Below, one piece after another: positions 48,748 through 58,558 of a stretch of DNA of 64,000 nucleotides; the stretch's first letter is position 1; each line of letters opens with the position of its first letter. Under the pieces are notes generated by a model. That model saw only the letters and a program-made list of their open reading frames with translations, ran no database searches and was not told the DNA's origin. Both the position numbers and the translations under genes were made by a program. Origin of the DNA: Sulfuriferula multivorans (GTDB lineage Bacteria > Pseudomonadota > Gammaproteobacteria > Burkholderiales > Sulfuriferulaceae); assembly GCF_003851125.1 (NCBI RefSeq), contig NZ_BGOW01000014.1, positions 1 through 64,000 of the forward strand, read 5' to 3'.

Positions 48748-51700
48748 ATGCCGCAGCCCGAACAACAAGCCAGGGAAAAAATAGATCAGTTGCTGCATGC
48801 GGCAGGCTGGCACGTCTGCGATGCTGCCGCTGCCAACATCCATGCAGCGCGCGGCGTTGCCATCCGCGAATTCCCGCTGCCCGGTTACGGCTTTGCCGAC
48901 TATCTGTTGTATGTGGACGGCAAGGCCGCGGGGGTGATCGAGGCCAAGAAGGAAGGTGTCACCCTCACCGGCGTCGAAACCCAGTCCGACAAATACACCA
49001 AGGGTTTGCCTGCCGGATTGCCGCGCTGGCGCAACCCGCTGCCGTTTTCCTACCAGTCCACCGGAATCGAAACCCGCTTCACCAACGGCCTCGACCCCAC
49101 GCCGCGCTCGCGCCCGGTTTTCGCGTTCCACAAACCTGAACTGTTTGCTGAGTGGCTGGGCTATGCGCCCACCGCGCAGCCGGGGGAGGGCAGCGCAGGC
49201 GAAACCGCCGCCACCTTCCTCGCCCGCCTGCAAGCCATGCCGCCGCTGAAAGAAGAAGGCCTGTGGCCCGCCCAGATCACGGCGATCCACAACCTGGAAA
49301 AATCTCTGAAGGAAAACCGCCCGCGCGCCTTGATCCAGATGGCTACCGGCTCGGGCAAGACCTTCACCTCGATTTCCTTCATCTACCGCCTGATCAAGTT
49401 CGCAGGGGCGCGGCGCATCCTGTTCCTGGTCGACCGCGGCAACCTCGCCGACCAGACCCTCAAGGAATTCCAGCAATACGTCTCGCCCTACAACAACTTC
49501 AAGTTCAGCGAGGAATACATCGTCCAGCGCCTGCAGGGCAACCAGATCGACACCACCGCCCGAGTCTGCATCTGCACCATCCAGCGCATGTATTCCATGC
49601 TCAAGGGCCGCGACTTGCCAGCCGACCTGGAAGAAGAATCCGTGGACCAATTGGGCAAGTTGTTCAAGGAACCCGAGCCCATCGAGTACAACCCGAATAT
49701 TCCCATCGAGACCTTCGACATCATCGTCACCGACGAGGCCCACCGCTCCATCTACAACCTGTGGGCGCAGGTGCTGGAATACTTCGACGCCTACCTCGTC
49801 GGCCTCACCGCCACGCCCGGCAAGCAGACCTTCGGCTTCTTCCACCAGAACCTGGTGATGGAATACAACCACGAAATGGCCGTGGCAGACGGCGTCAACG
49901 TCAACTACGACGTCTACCGCATCAAGACTGCCATCACCGAGGCCGGCTCCAAGGTCGAAGCCGGCTACTACGTCGAAAAGCAGGAACGCGACACCCGCAA
50001 AACCCGCTGGGAAGAGCTCGACGACGACTTCGCCTACGACCCCAACCAGCTCGACCGCGACGTCGTCACCCCCGACCAGATCCGCACCATCGTGCGCACC
50101 TTCCGCGACAAGCTGTTCAGCGAAATCTTCCCCGGCCGCAGCGGCGATTGGGTGCCTAAGACCCTCATCTTCGCCAAGGACGACAACCACGCCGAAAACA
50201 TCGTCGAAATCCTGCGCGAGGAATTCGGCAAGGGCAACGACTTCGCCCAGAAGATCACCTATAGAACCACCGGCGCCACGCCCAAGGAGCTCATCAAGGC
50301 TTTCCGCAACAGTCCCATGCCGCGCGTCGCCGTCACCGTCGATATGATCGCCACCGGCACCGACATCAAACCGGTCGAAATCGTCTTCTTCATGCGCGCC
50401 GTCAAATCGCGCGGCTTCTTCGAGCAGATGAAAGGTCGCGGTGTGCGCGTCATCAATCCCGACGACCTCAAGGCCGTCACCCCCGACGCCACGGCCAAGG
50501 ACCACTTCGTCATCATCGACGCCGTCGGCGTGTGCGAGCAGGACAAAACCGACGCTCGCCCCATGGAGAAAAAGCCCAGCGTCAGCTTCGAGCGCCTGCT
50601 GCAAGCCGTCGCCTTCGGCAACACCGAAGACGACGTCATCACCAGCATCGCCGGCCGCCTGTCAAGAATGGAACACCGCATCAGCGCCGAAGACGATGCG
50701 AAGATTCGCACCGCAAGCGGCGGCCTCGGCCTTAAAGACCTCGCCCACCAGTTGGTAGCTGCACTTTCGCCCGATCCCGTAGAAGCGGCGTCCCGCCGCT
50801 TGCCACACTTACCAATGGAAACCGCTGACGATTACGCGGGATACGGCTTCCTCGACCCCAATGCTCCTATCGAGATGCAGCGCGCCAACCTTCCACACTG
50901 GCGGCAGGATGAGGCCAGCTATTTCGTCACCTTCCGTCTGGCGGATTCGCTACCCAAACAACGTCTCATCGCCTGGCGGGAAGCGCGTGCCGGCTGGCTG
51001 ACGCGCAACCCCCGCCCCTGGTCAGCCGCACAGGAAACCGACTATACAGAGCGCTTTTCCGCCCGCATCGAGTCCTGGCTGGACGCCGGTGTGGGAAGCT
51101 GCGCTCTGGCAAACCCTCAAGCACGCGAGCTGATGGAGACGGCATTGAGGTATTTCGACGGAGAACGCTACCGGCTCGGAAAATATGTGGTGGCCGCCAA
51201 CCATGTCCACGTGATCGTCACGCCACTGCCGGGGCACGAACTCTCTGAAATCCTGCATAGCTGGAAAAGCTACACGGCCAAACAGATATTGCAGTTAGAA
51301 GCGGCGTCCAGCCGCTTGTCGGAAGGCACGATCTCAGTCTGGCAAAAAGAGTCCTACGACCGTATCGTACGCTCGCCCGAAGAACTGTTTCGCATTGAGC
51401 AATATATACAGCGGCATTCCGAATACGAATTGAGCGCGGCGGACAAGCGGCGAGACGCCGCTTCCACGGCGATGCAGCAGGCGCGGACACTCGCCGCCAA
51501 ACCCCTCTGCGACCCCGCGCTACGCCAGCTTATCCTCGACATCAAAGCCAAAAACGAACTCACCATCGACCACGTCAGCCAGGACCAGGTTCTCGAAGCC
51601 GCCTTCAGCCAGGCCGCCCGCGACCGCGCCAAAGGCCTGGTGCAATCCTTCGAGCAATTCATCGCCGACCACAAAGACGAAATCACCGCCCTGCAAATCC

Positions 51701-52206
51701 TCTATAGCAAGCCCTACAAACAGCGCCTCACCTTCGAGGCCGTAAAAGAACTCGCCGACGCCATCGAAAAACCGCCCTACCTGTGGAACGAATCCCAGCT
51801 CTGGCAGGCCTACGCCGCGTTGGAAGCCAGCAAGGTCAAAGGCGCCAGTGGCCGCCGCATCCTCACCGACCTGGTTTCGCTGGTGCGCTTCGCCATCCAT
51901 CAGGACAACGAACTGATCCCGTTCCCCGAGCGGGTCAACGCCAACTTCAAGGCGTGGGTGGAAGCGGCGTCCCGCCGCTTGGCTGAAACAAAGCGGCAAG
52001 ATGCCGCTTCTACGGGCTTCACTACTGAACAAATGAAATGGCTGGAAATGATCCGCGACCACATCGCCGCCAACCTCGGCATCGAGCCGGATGATTTCGA
52101 ATACGCACCTTTCGCCCAGGCGGGCGGATTAGGCAGGGTGCATCAACTCTTCGGCGATGAGCTGAGCACCCTCATCGAACAACTGAACGAAAGCCTGGCG
52201 GCATAA
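48748..52206 (+). CDS. hsdR: type I restriction endonuclease subunit R with in-frame RAYT and REP insertions
   Basis: HsdR is the ATP-driven translocase and nuclease subunit. The nuclease motif is FADYLLYVDGK...VIEAKKEG (Asp51, Glu65, Lys67), the helicase motifs ATGSGKT (199-205) and DEAHRS (from 329), and the C-terminal domain is of the EcoEI type (LEMIRDHIAANLGI). At 1152 residues it is unusually long. Residues 678-907 are an inserted RAYT transposase-like domain, and 1071-1089 an inserted REP pair, neither with a stop. Without them it would be about 900. The start at 48748 is chosen as the first ATG; a GTG at 48709 is possible. Whether it is active is open. Confidence 0.9.
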   Translation: MPQPEQQAREKIDQLLHAAGWHVCDAAAANIHAARGVAIREFPLPGYGFADYLLYVDGKAAGVIEAKKEGVTLTGVETQSDKYTKGLPAGLPRWRNPLPFSYQSTGIETRFTNGLDPTPRSRPVFAFHKPELFAEWLGYAPTAQPGEGSAGETAATFLARLQAMPPLKEEGLWPAQITAIHNLEKSLKENRPRALIQMATGSGKTFTSISFIYRLIKFAGARRILFLVDRGNLADQTLKEFQQYVSPYNNFKFSEEYIVQRLQGNQIDTTARVCICTIQRMYSMLKGRDLPADLEEESVDQLGKLFKEPEPIEYNPNIPIETFDIIVTDEAHRSIYNLWAQVLEYFDAYLVGLTATPGKQTFGFFHQNLVMEYNHEMAVADGVNVNYDVYRIKTAITEAGSKVEAGYYVEKQERDTRKTRWEELDDDFAYDPNQLDRDVVTPDQIRTIVRTFRDKLFSEIFPGRSGDWVPKTLIFAKDDNHAENIVEILREEFGKGNDFAQKITYRTTGATPKELIKAFRNSPMPRVAVTVDMIATGTDIKPVEIVFFMRAVKSRGFFEQMKGRGVRVINPDDLKAVTPDATAKDHFVIIDAVGVCEQDKTDARPMEKKPSVSFERLLQAVAFGNTEDDVITSIAGRLSRMEHRISAEDDAKIRTASGGLGLKDLAHQLVAALSPDPVEAASRRLPHLPMETADDYAGYGFLDPNAPIEMQRANLPHWRQDEASYFVTFRLADSLPKQRLIAWREARAGWLTRNPRPWSAAQETDYTERFSARIESWLDAGVGSCALANPQARELMETALRYFDGERYRLGKYVVAANHVHVIVTPLPGHELSEILHSWKSYTAKQILQLEAASSRLSEGTISVWQKESYDRIVRSPEELFRIEQYIQRHSEYELSAADKRRDAASTAMQQARTLAAKPLCDPALRQLILDIKAKNELTIDHVSQDQVLEAAFSQAARDRAKGLVQSFEQFIADHKDEITALQILYSKPYKQRLTFEAVKELADAIEKPPYLWNESQLWQAYAALEASKVKGASGRRILTDLVSLVRFAIHQDNELIPFPERVNANFKAWVEAASRRLAETKRQDAASTGFTTEQMKWLEMIRDHIAANLGIEPDDFEYAPFAQAGGLGRVHQLFGDELSTLIEQLNESLAA
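50779..50801 (+). repeat. REP palindrome, left end of RAYT unit
   Basis: GTAGAAGCGGCGTCCCGCCG continuing CTT, a 23-base REP with the stem AAGCGGCG/CGCCGCTT. It is read in the hsdR frame as V-E-A-A-S-R-R-L. It is the left boundary of the RAYT insertion. Confidence 0.85.
51295..51317 (+). repeat. REP palindrome nested in the RAYT sequence
   Basis: TTAGAAGCGGCGTCCAGCCG plus CTT differs from the outer REP at few positions and is read L-E-A-A-S-S-R-L, the same phase as the other direct copies. It lies between the SWKSYTAKQIL and VWQKESYDR motifs, where relatives have a short loop. Confidence 0.7.
51445..51467 (-). repeat. REP palindrome, right end of RAYT unit
   Basis: On the minus strand it reads GTGGAAGCGGCGTCTCGCCG plus CTT, inverted relative to the left copy. 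In hsdR it is read K-R-R-D-A-A-S-T. HsdR homology (QQARTLAAKPLCDPALRQLI) resumes right after it. Confidence 0.85.
51958..52013. repeat. REP pair (BIME) inserted in hsdR
   Basis: A direct REP (51958-51980) and an inverted REP (51991-52013) are separated by 10 bases. They are read as VEAASRRL-AET-KRQDAAST between NFKAW and GFTTEQMKWLEMIRD, which are adjacent or nearly so in typical HsdR proteins. The unit is 56 bp. Confidence 0.88.
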
Positions 52207-52297
52207 CGCAACGTGAGCTTGCCAGCCTGTAAGCACCGCTTACAAGTTCTGCCGCGCGTCCCGCGGGATAATCTTTGGCTTTACGGATACCTTATAT

Positions 52298-52315
52298 AGT
52301 GCTTTAATAAGTACT
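52298..52315. promoter_or_regulatory. possible toxin-antitoxin operator
   Basis: AGTGCTTTAATAAGTACT is an imperfect palindrome (12 of 18 positions symmetric) just downstream of TATATA and 23 bp before the antitoxin ATG. Antitoxins of this type usually repress their own promoter, so an operator is expected here. Confidence 0.4.
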
Positions 52316-52337
52316 GCTTTGAGTATTGGAGTTAAAC

Positions 52338-52610
52338 ATGAACATCGTCCCAGCACAGGAAATCAAGCGTCGTGGCATCGCCGCCGTGGATGAAGCCCTG
52401 GCGCAAGGCCCGGTGCACATCATCAAGAACAATCGCCCCCAATATGTCGTGCTGACTGAAGAGCGCTACAGCGAACTGATCGAGTCCCAGGAAGAAGCCG
52501 CACTGGCCCGCATCAAGGCCTCGCTGGAGGATGCCAAGGCTGGCCGCGTTACCCGGCACGACAGCGTCGAAGCCCTGATGCAGCACTTGGACAGCGAACC
52601 GGCCACATGA
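52338..52610 (+). CDS. type II antitoxin, Phd/YefM-like
   Basis: The 90-residue protein has an N-terminal DNA-binding/dimerisation part (MNIVPAQEIKRRGIAAVDEA, NRPQYVVLTEERYSELIE) and an extended acidic C terminus that would wrap the toxin. The ATG at 52338 has TTGGAG upstream. It overlaps the toxin start by four bases, the usual coupling in such modules. Confidence 0.85.
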   Translation: MNIVPAQEIKRRGIAAVDEALAQGPVHIIKNNRPQYVVLTEERYSELIESQEEAALARIKASLEDAKAGRVTRHDSVEALMQHLDSEPAT

Positions 52611-52885
52611 GCTGGACCCTGGCCACCACGGCCTTCTTCGACCGTCGTGTGCGCAAGTTCCTGGCCAAGCACCCCGACCTCCGGCCCCGTTTCATCGAGA
52701 CGATGGAGCAACTGAGTGCCGACCCTTTCCAGTCCAGCCTGCGCTTGCATCCCCTGACCGGCAAACTCCAGGGCATGCAGGCCGTCAGCCTCACCTACAG
52801 CTACCGCATCACACTCACCCTGCAAATCACAGAGCACGAAATCCTGCTGCTCGACATCGGCAGCCATGACGAGGTGTACGGGTGA
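52607..52885 (+). CDS. type II toxin, RelE/YafQ-like mRNA interferase
   Basis: The 92-residue basic protein has the RelE/ParE-superfamily fold pattern: FFDRRVRKFLAKHPDL, RLHPLTGKLQGMQAVSL, SYRITLTLQI and the C-terminal LLLDIGSHDEVYG typical of YafQ-like toxins. It would cleave mRNA on the ribosome when freed from its antitoxin. Its stop overlaps the GTG of the duplicated hsdR tail. Confidence 0.85.
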   Translation: MSWTLATTAFFDRRVRKFLAKHPDLRPRFIETMEQLSADPFQSSLRLHPLTGKLQGMQAVSLTYSYRITLTLQITEHEILLLDIGSHDEVYG

Positions 52886-53019
52886 ATCGCGGCATCGAGC
52901 CGGACGACTTCGAATACGCGCCCTTCGCCCAGGAGGGTGGGTTGGGTAGGGTGTATCAGCTCTTCGGCGATGAGCTGAACACGCTGATTGAGCAATTGAA
53001 CGAAAGCTTGGCGGCATGA
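52882..53019 (+). pseudogene. duplicated hsdR 3' end
   Basis: It encodes GIEPDDFEYAPFAQEGGLGR continuing to NESLAA, the same C terminus as the full hsdR. Over 129 aligned bases (52891-53019 against 52078-52206) I count 19 differences, nearly all synonymous. Its TGA overlaps the hsdS ATG (ATGA), as a native hsdR-hsdS junction would, whereas the full hsdR ends TAA ahead of the toxin-antitoxin pair. A GTG at 52882 could start a 45-residue peptide. Confidence 0.85.
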
Positions 53020-54467
53020 AGGTCCAAGAGCAGTCTGCGGCCTACTTCGTACAAACAGCATCTGATGGATGGTGCGAAAAGCCGCTTCGTGAACTGGTAA
53101 CCAAGCTCGTCGATGGCTCGCACAATCCGCCGCCTAAACAAGACACTGGGCTGCCGATGCTTAGCGCACGCAATATTGAAAACAACGAAATCGTTTTTGA
53201 TGTGTTTCGCCTGATCTCTGAGGGCGCTTTTAAAACTGAAAATGCAAGGACACGAATTGCTGCTGGCGATGTTCTATTGACCATCGTAGGCACTATTGGC
53301 CGAGCTGCTGTCGTTCCAGAAGCTGCGGGGCCCTTTGCCTTGCAAAGAAGTGTGGCTGTCCTTACACCGGGGCCAGAACTTCTGCCGAAGTATCTTGTTT
53401 ACCAACTTCAGTCGCCTGTGATTCAGCGTTACTTTGAGGCCAAGGCCCGAGGTACCGCACAGAAGGGGGTTTATCTTAAGACGCTTGGGCAGACGCCAAT
53501 TCAAGTTGCACCCCTCGACCAACAAAAACGCATCGTCGCGGAAATCGAAAAACAATTCTCCCGCCTCGACGAAGCCGTCGCCAACCTCAAGCGCGTCAAG
53601 GCCAACTTCAAGCGCTACAAAGCCGCCGTCCTCAAAGCCGCCGTCGAAGGCCGCCTCGTCGAAACCGAAGCCGAACTCGCCCGCCGCGAAGGCCGCAGCT
53701 ACGTAACCGGCGCCCAACTCCTGCAACGCATCCTCGAAACCCGTCGCAGCCAGTGGCAAGGCAAGGGCAAATACAAAGAACCCGCCGCACCCGACATCAC
53801 TGACCTGCTCGAATTGCCGGAGGGGTGGGTGTGGGCATCGCCTGCGCAATTGTCAGCTGGTGAGCCGTATTCACTAGCAATTGGGCCATTTGGTAGCAGT
53901 CTTAAGGTGAGCGACTACGCCACTTCCGGGGTGCCATTGGTGTTTGTGAGGAACATCCGCGCAGCTATGTTCGGTGGACCTGACACGGTTTACGTTAGCG
54001 AGGTGAAGGCCGGGGAGTTACGAGCGCATTGGGTCGCAACGGGCGATCTACTTGTCACAAAAATGGGTGATCCACCAGGTGATGTTTGTATCTATCCCGC
54101 GCATAGGCCACCTGCAGTTGTTACAGCGGATTGCATCAAGCTGCGGCTCGGCGACTTTGCGCTGACGCAGTTTTTCGCGTATGCAATCGAATCTGACTTA
54201 GTGCACAAACAGATACTCGGTATCACAAAGGGTGTTGCTCAGTTGAAGGTCAGCCTTGGTCGGTTTGGTTCAATCGCGTTCCCGTTACCGCCAATCGCTG
54301 AACAACACCGCATCGTCTCCGAAGTCGACCGCCATCTTTCAATCATCAGCAAAACAGAGGTTCAGGTGGACGCCAACCTTCAACGTGCCGAGCATATGCG
54401 CCAAGCAATTCTTGGTAAAGCCTTCTCGGCACGACAAACCGAGTATGTGATGGGGCTGTCGGCATGA
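53016..54467 (+). CDS. hsdS: type I restriction-modification specificity subunit S
   Basis: HsdS binds the bipartite DNA target and bridges HsdM and HsdR. The 483-residue protein has two target-recognition domains (about 15-165 and 270-425). These are separated by a coiled-coil conserved region, QQKRIVAEIEKQFSRLDEAV then LKRVKANFKRYKAAVLKAAV. A second conserved region reads AEQHRIVSEVDRHLSIISKT. The start is fixed by the overlap with the hsdR tail. The recognition sequence cannot be read from the protein. Confidence 0.93.
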   Translation: MKVQEQSAAYFVQTASDGWCEKPLRELVTKLVDGSHNPPPKQDTGLPMLSARNIENNEIVFDVFRLISEGAFKTENARTRIAAGDVLLTIVGTIGRAAVVPEAAGPFALQRSVAVLTPGPELLPKYLVYQLQSPVIQRYFEAKARGTAQKGVYLKTLGQTPIQVAPLDQQKRIVAEIEKQFSRLDEAVANLKRVKANFKRYKAAVLKAAVEGRLVETEAELARREGRSYVTGAQLLQRILETRRSQWQGKGKYKEPAAPDITDLLELPEGWVWASPAQLSAGEPYSLAIGPFGSSLKVSDYATSGVPLVFVRNIRAAMFGGPDTVYVSEVKAGELRAHWVATGDLLVTKMGDPPGDVCIYPAHRPPAVVTADCIKLRLGDFALTQFFAYAIESDLVHKQILGITKGVAQLKVSLGRFGSIAFPLPPIAEQHRIVSEVDRHLSIISKTEVQVDANLQRAEHMRQAILGKAFSARQTEYVMGLSA

Positions 54468-55372
54468 TTGCGATCGATACCGACCGTCGTCTTTTTTACG
54501 AAGGTTCAAGTAACTATGGGCACGGCATATGGCCTTCGCCCTTTGTTTCCATAGCTACCGTTTTGCCACTAGAAATGGACCTTTCTGCCATGCCGACGTC
54601 CTCATCTGATCTCGGACACGCCAAACTGATTTTCCGGGAAGACACTTTTGATCCGGTGACCCGCGTTCGCCGTGGTCGCTTCTATTTCAATCTAGGCTTC
54701 CAACCCCAGGAGTGGCACGTCCAGACCCACCCAGCCTTCAAGGAGGAAGTCGGGAATAGGGATCACCAAGGAAACCTCATCAAGCGACTCTATGGCTTCC
54801 AGCGCTGGCCCGCGTTCACCGAATTACATCCTGAGAAGACTTCGCCCCTTGTTGCCCTGGGTACAGCGGATGCATTTACGCTTTGGAAAGTCATCGGCAT
54901 CGAGCGGATCGTAACGGGTGAAGATTTGGTCACCTTGCGCGCCCGTTCAGCAATGGGCGTTCTGCCAGAAATCCAAATGGATTTGGTTCCTACCGAGGGC
55001 CGAGAGAAGGTGATGCAGACTATCGAGAAGGTGGTTGAAGCTGCTTACCGCGCCGGCCCGGAGTCAGTCATCGACCGCTGCCGCGACGCAGCGCAGGCGT
55101 CTTTGGGTGTCTGGATGGCTGACAAATTCAGTGATGATGGCCTTCGTCGCATCGACCTTGGCCCTCAGATTAAGGCACTGGAAAAACGGATGGCCGAAGA
55201 TTTACCAGTAATCGTTGTTTCGGTGGGCAAAGCGATCGCACGGCTACATGCCCGTTGCAAACCTAATGAACAGTTAACGCGGGAAGGGCGGTTGCTCATC
55301 GAAGATGATGCTGAATCCGCTATTGCCATGCTTGGTCTTCTCTATCGTGAATTTCGCTGGTGCCAATCTTGA
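54464..55372 (+). CDS. hypothetical protein inside the restriction-modification operon
   Basis: The 302-residue protein starts in a four-base overlap with hsdS (ATGA), so it is translated with the operon. It has no signal peptide or membrane segment. A beta-rich N-terminal half (FREDTFDPVTRVRRGRFYFN, LGFQPQEWHVQTHPAF) is followed by a helical C-terminal half (GPQIKALEKRMAEDLPVIVV, EDDAESAIAMLGLLYREFRW). No family was recognised. Its place suggests a defence or control role; that is inference from context only. Confidence 0.7.
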   Translation: MIAIDTDRRLFYEGSSNYGHGIWPSPFVSIATVLPLEMDLSAMPTSSSDLGHAKLIFREDTFDPVTRVRRGRFYFNLGFQPQEWHVQTHPAFKEEVGNRDHQGNLIKRLYGFQRWPAFTELHPEKTSPLVALGTADAFTLWKVIGIERIVTGEDLVTLRARSAMGVLPEIQMDLVPTEGREKVMQTIEKVVEAAYRAGPESVIDRCRDAAQASLGVWMADKFSDDGLRRIDLGPQIKALEKRMAEDLPVIVVSVGKAIARLHARCKPNEQLTREGRLLIEDDAESAIAMLGLLYREFRWCQS

Positions 55373-55449
55373 CCATCAAGATCGTCAGCCAAGGTGTCGC
55401 CCTTTTCAATCAGTTGGTGACCAAGAAGCACTCAATCGGTCTGTAAATT

Positions 55450-55764
55450 ATGAACTCCGCCACCATCGTCCAAAAACTCTGGAACTACTGCAACGTCCTG
55501 CGCGACGACGGCATGTCATATGGCGACTACGTCGAGCAATTGACGTATTTGCTGTTCCTGAAGATGGCCGACGAGCGCAGCCGGCCGCCCTACAACCAGG
55601 CCAGCCCTGTGCTCGCCGGCTATGACTGGCCCAGCCTGGTGAAGAAGGACGGCGACGAGCTGTTCGACCACTACCGCCACACGCTGGAGGAACTGGGCAA
55701 GCAGAAAGGCCTGCTCGGGCTGATCTTCAACAAGTTGCATGGAGGATCCGTTCATGAAATTTGA
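55450..55764 (+). pseudogene. duplicated hsdM 5' end
   Basis: It encodes the HsdM N-terminal domain (IVQKLWNYCNVLRDDGMSYG...GLLGLIF) and then breaks off at the fic gene. The 282 bases 55450-55731 align without gaps to 57008-57289 of the full hsdM with about 22 differences, most of them in the first half. The frame would give a 104-residue truncated protein, which could still be made and might interfere with or support HsdM. Confidence 0.85.
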
Positions 55765-56887
55765 AACCTTCCAGGCGGGCGTGTTGCGGCAGCGCTACCA
55801 GTACAAGAGCTTCGAGCCGGTTCCGGTAAACCATGAGTGGGTGTGGGAAGACGCCACCATCAACGCCTTGCTGGAGGCGGCCAACCGGGCGCTGGGCGAG
55901 CTGAATGCCTTTTCCCTGATCGTGCCGGACATCGACCTGTTCATTGAAATGCACGTGGTCAAGGAGGCGCAGACTTCCAGCCGCATCGAGGGTACCCAGA
56001 CCGGCTTCGACGAAGCACTGATGTCGGAAGAGCAGATTCAGCCAGAAAAGCGCGATGACTGGCGCGAGGTGCGCAACTACATCGACGCGGTGAACACGGC
56101 GATTGCCGAGTTGAAGACGCTGCCGCTGTCGAACCGGTTGCTGAAACAGGCCCATGAAATCCTGATGCGCGGGGTGCGCGGCGAGCATAAGCAGCCCGGG
56201 GAATTCCGCACCAGCCAGAATTGGATCGGTGGCTCCAGCCTGACGGATGCCGTGTTCATCCCGCCCCATCCGGACGGCGTGCCGGATTTGATGAGTGACC
56301 TGGAGGCGTTTTGGCACAACGAGGCTATCGTGGTGCCGCACCTGATCCGGGTGGCCATCAGCCACTATCAGTTCGAGACTGTCCATCCTTTTCTCGACGG
56401 CAACGGTCGCATCGGGCGGCTGCTGATCCCCTTGTATTTGGTCAGCCATGGCGTGCTGGCGAAGCCTTCGCTCTATTTGTCAGACTTCTTCGAGCGCAAT
56501 CGGGCGAGTTACTACGATGCGCTGATGCGGGTGCGCGTGTCGAACGATCTGATCCACTGGGTGCGTTTCTTCCTGCAGGGCATGGCGGAAACCGCCACCA
56601 AGGGACGCGAAGTGTTCCAGCAGGTGTTGGCCCTGCGCACCGAAGCCGAGCACGCCGTGCTGGGGCTGGGCAAGCGGGCCGCCAACGCCCGACAGGTACT
56701 GAATCTGCTGTACCGCAAGCCGGTGGTGTCGGCGGCCGACATCGAGAAAGCGTTGTCCGTTAGCACGCCAACAGCCAATGCCCTGATCCGGGATTTCGAG
56801 AAGCTGGGGATGCTGCTGGAGATTACCGGGCAGCAACGGGGACGGGCTTATGCGTTTGATCGTTACCTACGATTATTTGTTAGTTAA
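55754..56887 (+). CDS. Fic-domain protein (AMPylation type)
   Basis: The Fic catalytic motif HPFLDGNGRIGR (211-222) is complete, with the catalytic His and the ATP-binding loop. An N-terminal inhibitory-helix motif SSRIEG (75-80) matches the (S/T)xxxE(G/N) class II pattern, so activity is probably self-restrained. The C-terminal part has a winged-helix (VSAADIEKALSVSTPTANAL). GGAGG eight bases before 55754 sets the start. Fic enzymes usually AMPylate a host protein, such as a topoisomerase. 377 residues. Confidence 0.9.
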   Translation: MKFETFQAGVLRQRYQYKSFEPVPVNHEWVWEDATINALLEAANRALGELNAFSLIVPDIDLFIEMHVVKEAQTSSRIEGTQTGFDEALMSEEQIQPEKRDDWREVRNYIDAVNTAIAELKTLPLSNRLLKQAHEILMRGVRGEHKQPGEFRTSQNWIGGSSLTDAVFIPPHPDGVPDLMSDLEAFWHNEAIVVPHLIRVAISHYQFETVHPFLDGNGRIGRLLIPLYLVSHGVLAKPSLYLSDFFERNRASYYDALMRVRVSNDLIHWVRFFLQGMAETATKGREVFQQVLALRTEAEHAVLGLGKRAANARQVLNLLYRKPVVSAADIEKALSVSTPTANALIRDFEKLGMLLEITGQQRGRAYAFDRYLRLFVS

Positions 56888-57007
56888 CGGAAATCGTTTT
56901 TCGTTAACTTAAGTGGTGGCCAAGTTAAAGGGAGTGGGGATGAATCTGCGTGAGCCTGTCTCGCCCGCTGGTAAATAAAAGGTAGCTCAATAAATGGAAG
57001 CCAAGCT

Positions 57008-58558
57008 GTGAACACTTCAACCATCGTCCAAAAACTCTGGAACTACTGCAACGTGCTGCGCGACGACGGCATGAGCTACGGCGACTATGTCGAACAGCTC
57101 ACCTATCTGCTGTTCTTGAAGATGGCCGACGAGCGCAGCCGGCCGCCCTACAACCAGGCCAGCCCGGTGCTCGCCGGCTATGACTGGCCCAGCCTGGTGA
57201 AGAAGGACGGCGACGAGCTGTTCGACCACTACCGCCACACGCTGGAGGAACTGGGCAAGCAGAAAGGCTTGCTCGGCCTGATCTTCACCAAATCGCAGAA
57301 CAAGTTCCAGGACCCGGCCAAGCTGCGGCGGCTGATCGTGGACCTGATCGACAAGGAAACCTGGGTGTCGATGAGCGCCGACGTGAAGGGCGACGCCTAC
57401 GAGGGCCTGCTGGAGAAGAACGCGCAGGACACCAAGTCCGGCGCGGGCCAGTACTTCACGCCGCGCCCGCTGATCCAGGCGATTGTCGATGCCATGGCGC
57501 CCAGGGCCGGCGAGACCATCTCCGACCCGGCCTGCGGCACCGGCGGCTTTCTGCTGGCGGCGCACGACTATGTGGTGAAACACTACCCCAACATGACATC
57601 GGCGGAGAAGAAGAAACTGCGCGGCGAAAGCTTCAAGGGCTGGGAACTGGTGCAGGCCACCGCCCGGCTGTGCGCGATGAACATGCTGCTGCACGGCATC
57701 GGCAGTGTAGAAGCGGCGTCCCGCCGCTTGGACGACGATGAAAAGCGGCGGGACGCCGCTTCTACGTTGCCGATTGCGGTGGGCGATTCGCTGGCCGCCG
57801 ACCCGGGCGAGCGCTTTGATGTGGTGCTGACCAATCCTCCCTTCGGCAAGAAGAGCAGCACCACCATCGTGGGCGAGGAGGGCAAGGTCAGCAAGGAGCG
57901 CGACACCGTCGAGCGCGACGACTTCTGGGCCACCACCTCGAACAAGCAGCTCAACTTCGTCCAGCACGTGAAGACGCTGCTGAAGCAGAACGGCCGCGCC
58001 GCCCTGGTGCTGCCGGACAACGTGCTGTTCGAAGGCGGGGCCGGCGAGACCATCCGCCGCAAACTGCTGCACGACTGTGACGTCCACACCCTGCTGCGCC
58101 TGCCCACCGGCCTGTTCTACGCTCAGGGCGTGAAGGCGAACGTGCTGTTCTTCGACAAAAAGCCCGCCGCCGAAACCCCGTGGACCCGCAAGCTGTGGAT
58201 CTACGACCTGCGCACCAACATGCACTTCACGCTCAAGACCAGCACGCTGAAGCGGGAAGACCTGGACGAGTTCGTGAAGTGCTACCACCCGGAAAACCGG
58301 CATGACCGGAAAGCCACGTGGTCGGCAGAAAACCCCGATGGCCGCTGGCGTGAATATGGCTATGAAGAGCTGATCAACCGCGACAAGGCCAGCCTGGATA
58401 TCTTCTGGCTAAGGGATGAATCGCTGTCCGACTCCGACAACCTGCCCGCGCCGGAAGTGATCGCGGCGGAGATTGTGGAGGATTTGGAGGCGGCGCTGGA
58501 ACAGTTCAGGGAGATCGCTACTGATCTCAGTGCCAGCGGGACAGGCGAACACCCCTGA
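57008..58558 (+). CDS. hsdM: type I restriction-modification methyltransferase subunit M with in-frame REP pair
   Basis: HsdM transfers methyl groups to adenine N6 in the HsdS target. The GTG start matches the duplicated N terminus upstream. The SAM-binding motif DPACGTGGFLLAA (from 173) and the catalytic NPPF (276-279) are intact. Residues 234-253 are a translated REP pair (VEAASRRL...KRRDAAST) between HGIGS and LPIAVGDSL. 516 residues. It is the last gene of the operon. Confidence 0.93.
   Translation: MNTSTIVQKLWNYCNVLRDDGMSYGDYVEQLTYLLFLKMADERSRPPYNQASPVLAGYDWPSLVKKDGDELFDHYRHTLEELGKQKGLLGLIFTKSQNKFQDPAKLRRLIVDLIDKETWVSMSADVKGDAYEGLLEKNAQDTKSGAGQYFTPRPLIQAIVDAMAPRAGETISDPACGTGGFLLAAHDYVVKHYPNMTSAEKKKLRGESFKGWELVQATARLCAMNMLLHGIGSVEAASRRLDDDEKRRDAASTLPIAVGDSLAADPGERFDVVLTNPPFGKKSSTTIVGEEGKVSKERDTVERDDFWATTSNKQLNFVQHVKTLLKQNGRAALVLPDNVLFEGGAGETIRRKLLHDCDVHTLLRLPTGLFYAQGVKANVLFFDKKPAAETPWTRKLWIYDLRTNMHFTLKTSTLKREDLDEFVKCYHPENRHDRKATWSAENPDGRWREYGYEELINRDKASLDIFWLRDESLSDSDNLPAPEVIAAEIVEDLEAALEQFREIATDLSASGTGEHP
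57707..57765. repeat. REP pair (BIME) inserted in hsdM
   Basis: A direct REP (57707-57729) and an inverted REP (57743-57765) are separated by 13 bases. It is read in frame as VEAASRRL-DDDE-KRRDAAST, the same phase as in hsdR. The unit is 59 bp. It falls between the SAM-binding and NPPF motifs, in a loop that is short in typical HsdM proteins. Confidence 0.9.

Follow-up and report, generated by a model that had tools for sequence, protein, structure and literature searches.

The window, that is, the whole stretch of 64,000 nucleotides of Sulfuriferula multivorans DNA that we analyzed, contains an hsdR gene whose reading frame runs unbroken from an ATG at 48748 to a stop codon at 52204–52206 on the forward strand (ORF reading of the window). 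Within this one frame, Pfam identifies the HSDR_N, ResIII, and Helicase_C domains, followed by Y1_Tnp (PF01797) and then EcoEI_R_C. The part with the first three domains (48748–50778, forward strand) is 84% identical to the insert-free hsdR of another genome, G059; the part with EcoEI_R_C (51468–52206, forward strand; PF08463, E 1e−42) completes the gene. Between them lie 689 bp (50779–51467, forward strand) with a GTAG-tagged REP at one end (50779–50802, forward strand, translated as VEAASRRL) and an inverted REP at the other (51444–51467, reverse strand, translated as KRRDAAST). The preliminary description, made from the letters of the DNA, had read this segment as a REP-associated tyrosine transposase (RAYT) inserted in frame in hsdR and bounded by two REPs; the open frame, the bounds, and Pfam agree, and we confirm that 50779–51467 is a GTAG-REP/RAYT/inverted-REP unit in frame in an EcoEI/EcoAI-type hsdR (48748–52206).

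The Y1/HUH domain and candidate catalytic Tyr that had been proposed for the insert are also present: the HUH motif is NHVH (51199–51210, forward strand) and the Tyr is encoded at 51403–51405 (forward strand), with a further REP between the two (51295–51317, forward strand) that occupies the same place in the fusion of a Verrucomicrobiota MAG (L041, vide infra). The Tyr motif is YIQRHS, as compared with the common YIxxNP. Comparison of the insert with the Y1 and RAYT families gave Pfam, profile, and fold matches: Y1_Tnp scores 29 bits (cut-off 23), the insert profile matches the RAYT structure 4er8 (E 7e−8), and the predicted structure of the insert (pLDDT 76.6) has 30 PDB matches with E ≤0.001, the titles of which are IS200-type and other transposases and RAYT 4er8. 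The scores fall below the curated NCBIfam cut-offs, both for the RAYT (REP_Tyr_transpos, 47.0 vs 80) and for the fusion protein (HsdR equivalogs, 375.7 vs 729 and 167.3 vs 550). Prediction of the whole fusion (four rows) reached a pLDDT of 39 and was set aside as evidence that HsdR tolerates the insert.

Beyond hsdR, positions 52338–53019 hold a Phd/YafQ-like toxin–antitoxin pair, both members with Pfam scores below the cut-off, that has the end of hsdR on one side and a repeat of its last ~130 bp on the other; repeated hsdR ends also occur in L040 and G031. A Fic-like gene (55739–56887, named by eye) lies between a truncated first copy of the hsdM start (55450–55734) and the full hsdM; this gene (region 55450–57008) looks like cargo that was added with a duplicated gene end, in the same way as the toxin–antitoxin pair.

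hsdR homologues with and without the insert

The whole fusion is found in a Thiobacillus MAG (L039, 94% identity) and a Sulfurimicrobium MAG (L040, 93%) and, at 53% identity for the first part of HsdR, 51% for the RAYT, and 45% for the end of HsdR, in L041; two further loci from the phylum of L041 (L096 and L101) carry a RAYT at the same hsdR site. The preliminary description had proposed a search for relatives without the insert, and these were found. The hsdR of G059 (L010; 73% identity to the end of the gene) has no such segment, its insert site being a variable linker with no REP, and the site is without a RAYT in 23 of the 29 hsdR rows that span it (L011, L013, L014, L249, and L260 end before the site and were excluded). 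Together with the Y1 and RAYT matches of the insert, this answers both conditions under which the preliminary description would have given up its insertion reading, and that reading stands.

On a host tree of these 29 rows, four changes are required to place the six filled rows (mean of the shuffles, 5.6; as low in 25 of 500); L101, L041, and L096 each have an empty row as partner, and L010, also empty, is the row closest to the window trio. No REP scar was found at the empty hsdR sites that were examined. We considered a single ancient insertion followed by simple descent and rejected it in view of the four filled/empty changes and the scarless empty sites; homing, several gains at a single tolerant linker, or several clean losses are therefore possible. 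Among 399 sampled genomes of the window's order, 11 have a RAYT match (E 1e−15), and only in the window genome is it in hsdR. The HsdR query matches 230 plasmid records, all with <60% identity; viral contigs searched with the RAYT gave no match.

RAYTs in frame in other proteins

The preliminary description called a RAYT translated within hsdR unusual; that it is a lone oddity is unsupported, because RAYTs often lie in frame in the Verrucomicrobiota that we sampled and do so again before uracil-DNA glycosylase (UDG) in the order to which the window belongs. There, the other 10 RAYT matches belong before a family-4 UDG, and in all eight that were scanned UDG and Y1_Tnp share one frame; of the two unscanned matches, L214 is cut off by the contig end, and L215 has a frame that does not extend into UDG.

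Our sample of the Verrucomicrobiota, the phylum of L041, comprises 387 genomes, 89 of which have RAYT matches (E 1e−20); among the 150 RAYT matches listed, 52 are located in stop-free frames of at least 450 aa. We took 60 regions with long frames and 40 free-standing RAYTs as controls; the 60 were picked for their long frames, so the list of hosts is not a random sample. When 50 of the 60 were scanned for host families, 32 proteins matched a host family both before and after the RAYT within a single frame (our reading of the Pfam scans), and 18 had no host match on one or both sides, L107 and L121 having no host family. The hosts of these 32 include leuS and priA (four genomes each), ispG and metH (three each, one metH with two RAYTs), and also alaS, valS, carB, xseA, hypF, several types of HsdR, DNA methylases, and others. 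Scanning genome contigs for the fusion gave 17 loci, six of which are ispG with a RAYT (one of the six with two RAYTs). Double RAYTs in one frame were seen in L151 (G065 C35) and L047, in metH and ispG genes.

Despite the internal RAYT, the host models exceed their curated cut-offs for alaS, leuS, ispG, metH, and priA. For the RAYTs themselves, among seven relatives the REP_Tyr_transpos cut-off (80) is reached by those in leuS, ispG, metH, and one of two UDGs and is not reached by those in alaS, priA, and the other UDG. Many of the in-frame cases come from draft genomes; also, three MAGs (L046, L048, and L049) are titled Akkermansia muciniphila and have sample names that look lake-derived, so we presume that these labels are probably wrong.

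The arrangement also occurs in a second phylum (that of G459, Bacteroidota per NCBI), in which Pfam identifies the hosts as HsdR (L271) and a DUF1156 protein (L270); L273 and L272 resemble these two by eye. Five of the 56 RAYT rows listed for this phylum are in frames of at least 450 aa, vs 52 of the 150 listed for the Verrucomicrobiota, a rough contrast because the queries and E limits differ and, in a few cases, two of the 56 rows are pieces of a single RAYT. The hsdR insert is, then, one member of a recurrent arrangement.

Several hosts are essential enzymes for which the filled gene is the only copy seen. G063 has a single alaS match (E 1e−30; 49 of its 70 candidates were scored), and this is the gene with the RAYT. 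Among 13 other genomes, the alaS halves are adjacent in 10, separated by 345 bp in one, and represented by the first half only in two; the 345 bp (L198, G384) have no RAYT match and are located at the site that holds the RAYT in G063. G302, G305, G308, and G342 have one full leuS each, and it contains a RAYT; the site is empty in G384 (82% identical) and G190, and the leuS matches of G063 are spread over two contigs. For ispG, the sole full match is fused in seven genomes (G456, G457, G308, G453, G452, G384, and G065); elsewhere, the gene runs off the contig (G455), is split over two contigs (G458), or is empty (G190). As judged against solved structures, the RAYT replaces ~8 residues of LeuRS (1h3n, 364–373) and ~6 residues of AlaRS (4xem, 414–421).

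Conservation and history of the RAYTs and their REPs

The HxH motif and the Tyr are intact in 70 of 71 in-frame RAYTs and in all 44 free RAYTs, although the 44 'free' rows include L154 and L155 (flanked frames of 318 and 335 aa), which may be in-frame cases. The single exception is a RAYT in priA (L129) that has His in place of the catalytic Tyr. The values of dN/dS for the RAYT are 0.12 (window/L039; six non-synonymous vs 14 synonymous changes), 0.25 (window/L040), and 0.14 (L039/L040) within hsdR, 0.11 in an ispG pair, and 0.04 in a UDG pair; thus, the RAYT is shown to be under purifying selection as a protein.

The start codons distinguish the two classes. A Met within 30 residues before the domain is present in 10 of 70 in-frame RAYTs vs 35 of 43 free RAYTs (p 9e−13; each class omits one row that lacks the start motif, and GTG and TTG starts were not counted). 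In hsdR, this Met is kept in the three Pseudomonadota copies (window, L039, and L040) and is absent in L041. The proposal of the preliminary description that the RAYT could be translated separately from an internal Met is therefore weak, and as a general reading of in-frame RAYTs we dropped it on these counts.

The insertion sites recur in orthologues: ispG (8/8), priA (4/4), metH (3/3), alaS (2/2), rSAM (3/4), leuS (4/4 within 20 columns), and hsdR (6/6, no more than 13 alignment columns apart in a gappy linker). Eight methylases have about three insertion places; the sites compared in glycosyltransferases and nudix proteins have no common position. REPs encode the junctions, which are not the same from host to host. 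Mapped on a tree of 115 RAYT domains, the host labels require 23 changes vs 44.7 when shuffled (0 of 200 shuffles as low), with near-copies adding to the host clustering; free and in-frame rows are interleaved. (L044, a duplicate of L151, was left out, as were L050, L053, L055, one partial L112 domain, and domains matching <100 profile positions, L153 among them.)

Synonymous divergence compares the ages of element and host. The RAYT has a lower dS than its host gene in the hsdR trio (p 2e−4, 4e−6, and 4e−3) and in one ispG pair (p 4e−7), the same dS in a UDG pair, and a higher dS in a leuS pair and in an ispG pair that is more distant; therefore, element and host gene often differ in age. These differences could stem from homing, from recombination, or from insertion more than once at a single tolerant loop; the lower dS could also reflect constraints that codon use or structure places on the RAYT.

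RAYTs are known as genes of their own and are thought to feed REP populations. The REP motif (≤3 mismatches; palindromes scored on both strands) has 16 matches in the window vs 1.6 expected, a number reached in none of 100 shuffles. In addition to the REPs of the insert, the window has an in-frame REP pair in hsdR (51958–52013, forward strand; VEAASRRLAETKRQDAAST), which is present in L039 and L040 and absent in L010 and L041, and another in hsdM (57707–57765, forward strand; gene 57008–58558). Two further REP pairs, read by eye, lie in frame in L041 (2754–2814 and 6829–6889), in the hsdR and hsdS genes of this verrucomicrobial locus. Where the window hsdR has its REP pair, the insert-free hsdR of G059 has the low-complexity stretch PLPRGEGRGEG; the loop may therefore accept several element types. 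Tandem repeated peptides (e.g., PEATVPQASRL and SQSVAGTSCGWDLQ) adjoin the in-frame RAYTs of L111, L102, L152, and L052, as if REPs multiply inside the host gene.

The window genome (3.62 Mb, 87 contigs, 100% complete) has one match to this RAYT (E 1e−3) and, with this one match only, gives no sign of present RAYT movement. Its seven sites of this REP type (≤2 mismatches) are all within window positions 50782–57762. The same confinement to one contig, within 9 kb at the restriction locus, is seen in G061 (7/7), G062 (5/5), and G063 (9/9), and nearly so in G409 (five of six sites at the restriction locus); a reversed control pattern has no match in the window genome, three in G061, none in G062, and four in G063. 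The sites are dispersed in G223 (n = 33) and G237 (n = 28); G059 has two and G156 one, and G305, the genome with the filled hsdR of L101, has zero sites of this REP type. The restriction locus seems to travel with its own REPs. Because all sites of this REP type in the window genome are located there, the hsdR copy probably arrived together with its restriction locus.

Interpretation and comparison with known systems

From the sequence comparisons, we consider it probable that these are REP–RAYT–REP cassettes, with opposite REPs, that are translated within host enzymes, as domains inserted at tolerant loops. The host gene would supply the promoter, start, and stop; one polypeptide would be made, in which the RAYT would fold as a separate domain on REP-coded linkers; and the host enzyme would stay working because the insert is in a loop or variable linker. 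Nicking and joining of single-stranded REP DNA is established for the RAYT family, and the in-frame RAYTs would be expected to act in the same way by analogy. The cassette would persist because only a precise deletion would restore the host gene. We propose more tentatively, at somewhat less than even chances, that the cassettes form an intein-like class of elements without splicing, that is, elements that lack their own start and stop, are only ever expressed as internal domains, and home into the same loop. Re-entry into that loop in other alleles would then give element histories younger or older than the host gene, and the hsdR case would travel with a restriction locus that bears its own closed REP population.

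The RAYT might instead be a domesticated domain, that is, a useful DNA-handling part (in HsdR, a sensor of REPs or single strands) kept for the host. Purifying selection on the RAYT, the same site in homologues across phyla, and the grouping of RAYTs by host gene (23 changes vs 44.7 shuffled) are consistent with this; however, 23 of the 29 hsdR rows that span the site do without the RAYT and filled rows pair with empty ones over four changes, the hosts are unrelated enzymes with no common task, REPs accompany the RAYT, and the dS values of RAYT and host are unequal in the hsdR trio and one ispG pair, so we regard domestication as unlikely. The purifying selection (dN/dS 0.12, with six non-synonymous vs 14 synonymous changes) and the HxH and Tyr that are intact in 70 of 71 also make it very improbable that the insert is a neutral passenger, tolerated and slowly decaying with no function in either role, despite the single RAYT copy in the window genome and the confinement of the REPs to the restriction locus.

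Two further explanations concern the product. A separate RAYT could be made from the internal start (MQRANLPHW) in hsdR, which is present in the window, L039, and L040; this seems improbable given its absence from L041, the 10 of 70 in-frame RAYTs with a Met before the domain (GTG and TTG not counted), and the lack of a stop after the RAYT domain, so that a product initiated internally would carry the HsdR tail. Alternatively, the insert could be spliced from the RNA or protein or bypassed by the ribosome; the preliminary description had named a self-excised polypeptide. Self-removal would suit an element that is carried by essential enzymes, and inteins and IStrons (the latter mentioned in the available text of PMC4853749) are precedents. 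Yet the Pfam scans contain no Hint or intein family, which leaves the self-excised polypeptide unsupported; RNA removal or bypass requires no open frame, yet the frames are open; and the junctions are REP-coded and vary from host to host. We give self-removal scarcely any credence and retain the translated cassette as our explanation.

In the available text of their survey of RAYT/TnpAREP proteins, Quentin et al. (2018, PMC6006769) treat RAYTs as their own genes. The subclass 2.4 genes described there have in-frame REPs within the transposase gene between HuH and Y, and the window RAYT resembles them in its HUH motif and Tyr, its flanking REPs, and its in-frame REP between HuH and Y (51295–51317); it differs in that it is in frame in hsdR and not a free-standing gene. 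According to the same text, a small number of unexpectedly long proteins were left out of the survey as fusions or misannotations; in-frame RAYTs could account for these. GTAG-tagged REPs in frame inside genes, many of them repair genes, are described in the available text of Di Nocera et al. (2013, PMC3733652), with the highest intragenic number in a verrucomicrobium (species epithet terrae); over half of those inserts encode 20 to 30 residues and the larger ones 43 to 82. Both the GTAG tag and the in-frame position within genes are shared with our cases, but we found no RAYT inside another gene reported in that text. The Rickettsia palindromic elements, as presented there, are likewise in-frame palindromic insertions in proteins but are CGTC-type repeats and not transposase-associated.

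Our search of the literature, which most subscription papers and preprints lie outside, found no report of in-frame RAYTs. If our reading is true, they would be mobile elements whose expression and survival depend on a host protein without splicing; they would also amount to dozens of natural experiments on domain insertion into essential enzymes and offer a direct test of REP element persistence. Inteins with homing endonucleases are inserted in frame at recurrent sites in essential genes and are patchy among alleles. In-frame insertion, recurrent sites, and patchiness among alleles were all found here for the RAYTs; they differ from inteins in that the Pfam scans identify no splicing (Hint) domain and the insert appears to stay in the protein. 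Across unrelated hosts, the in-frame RAYTs thus look like an intein-like way of life without splicing.
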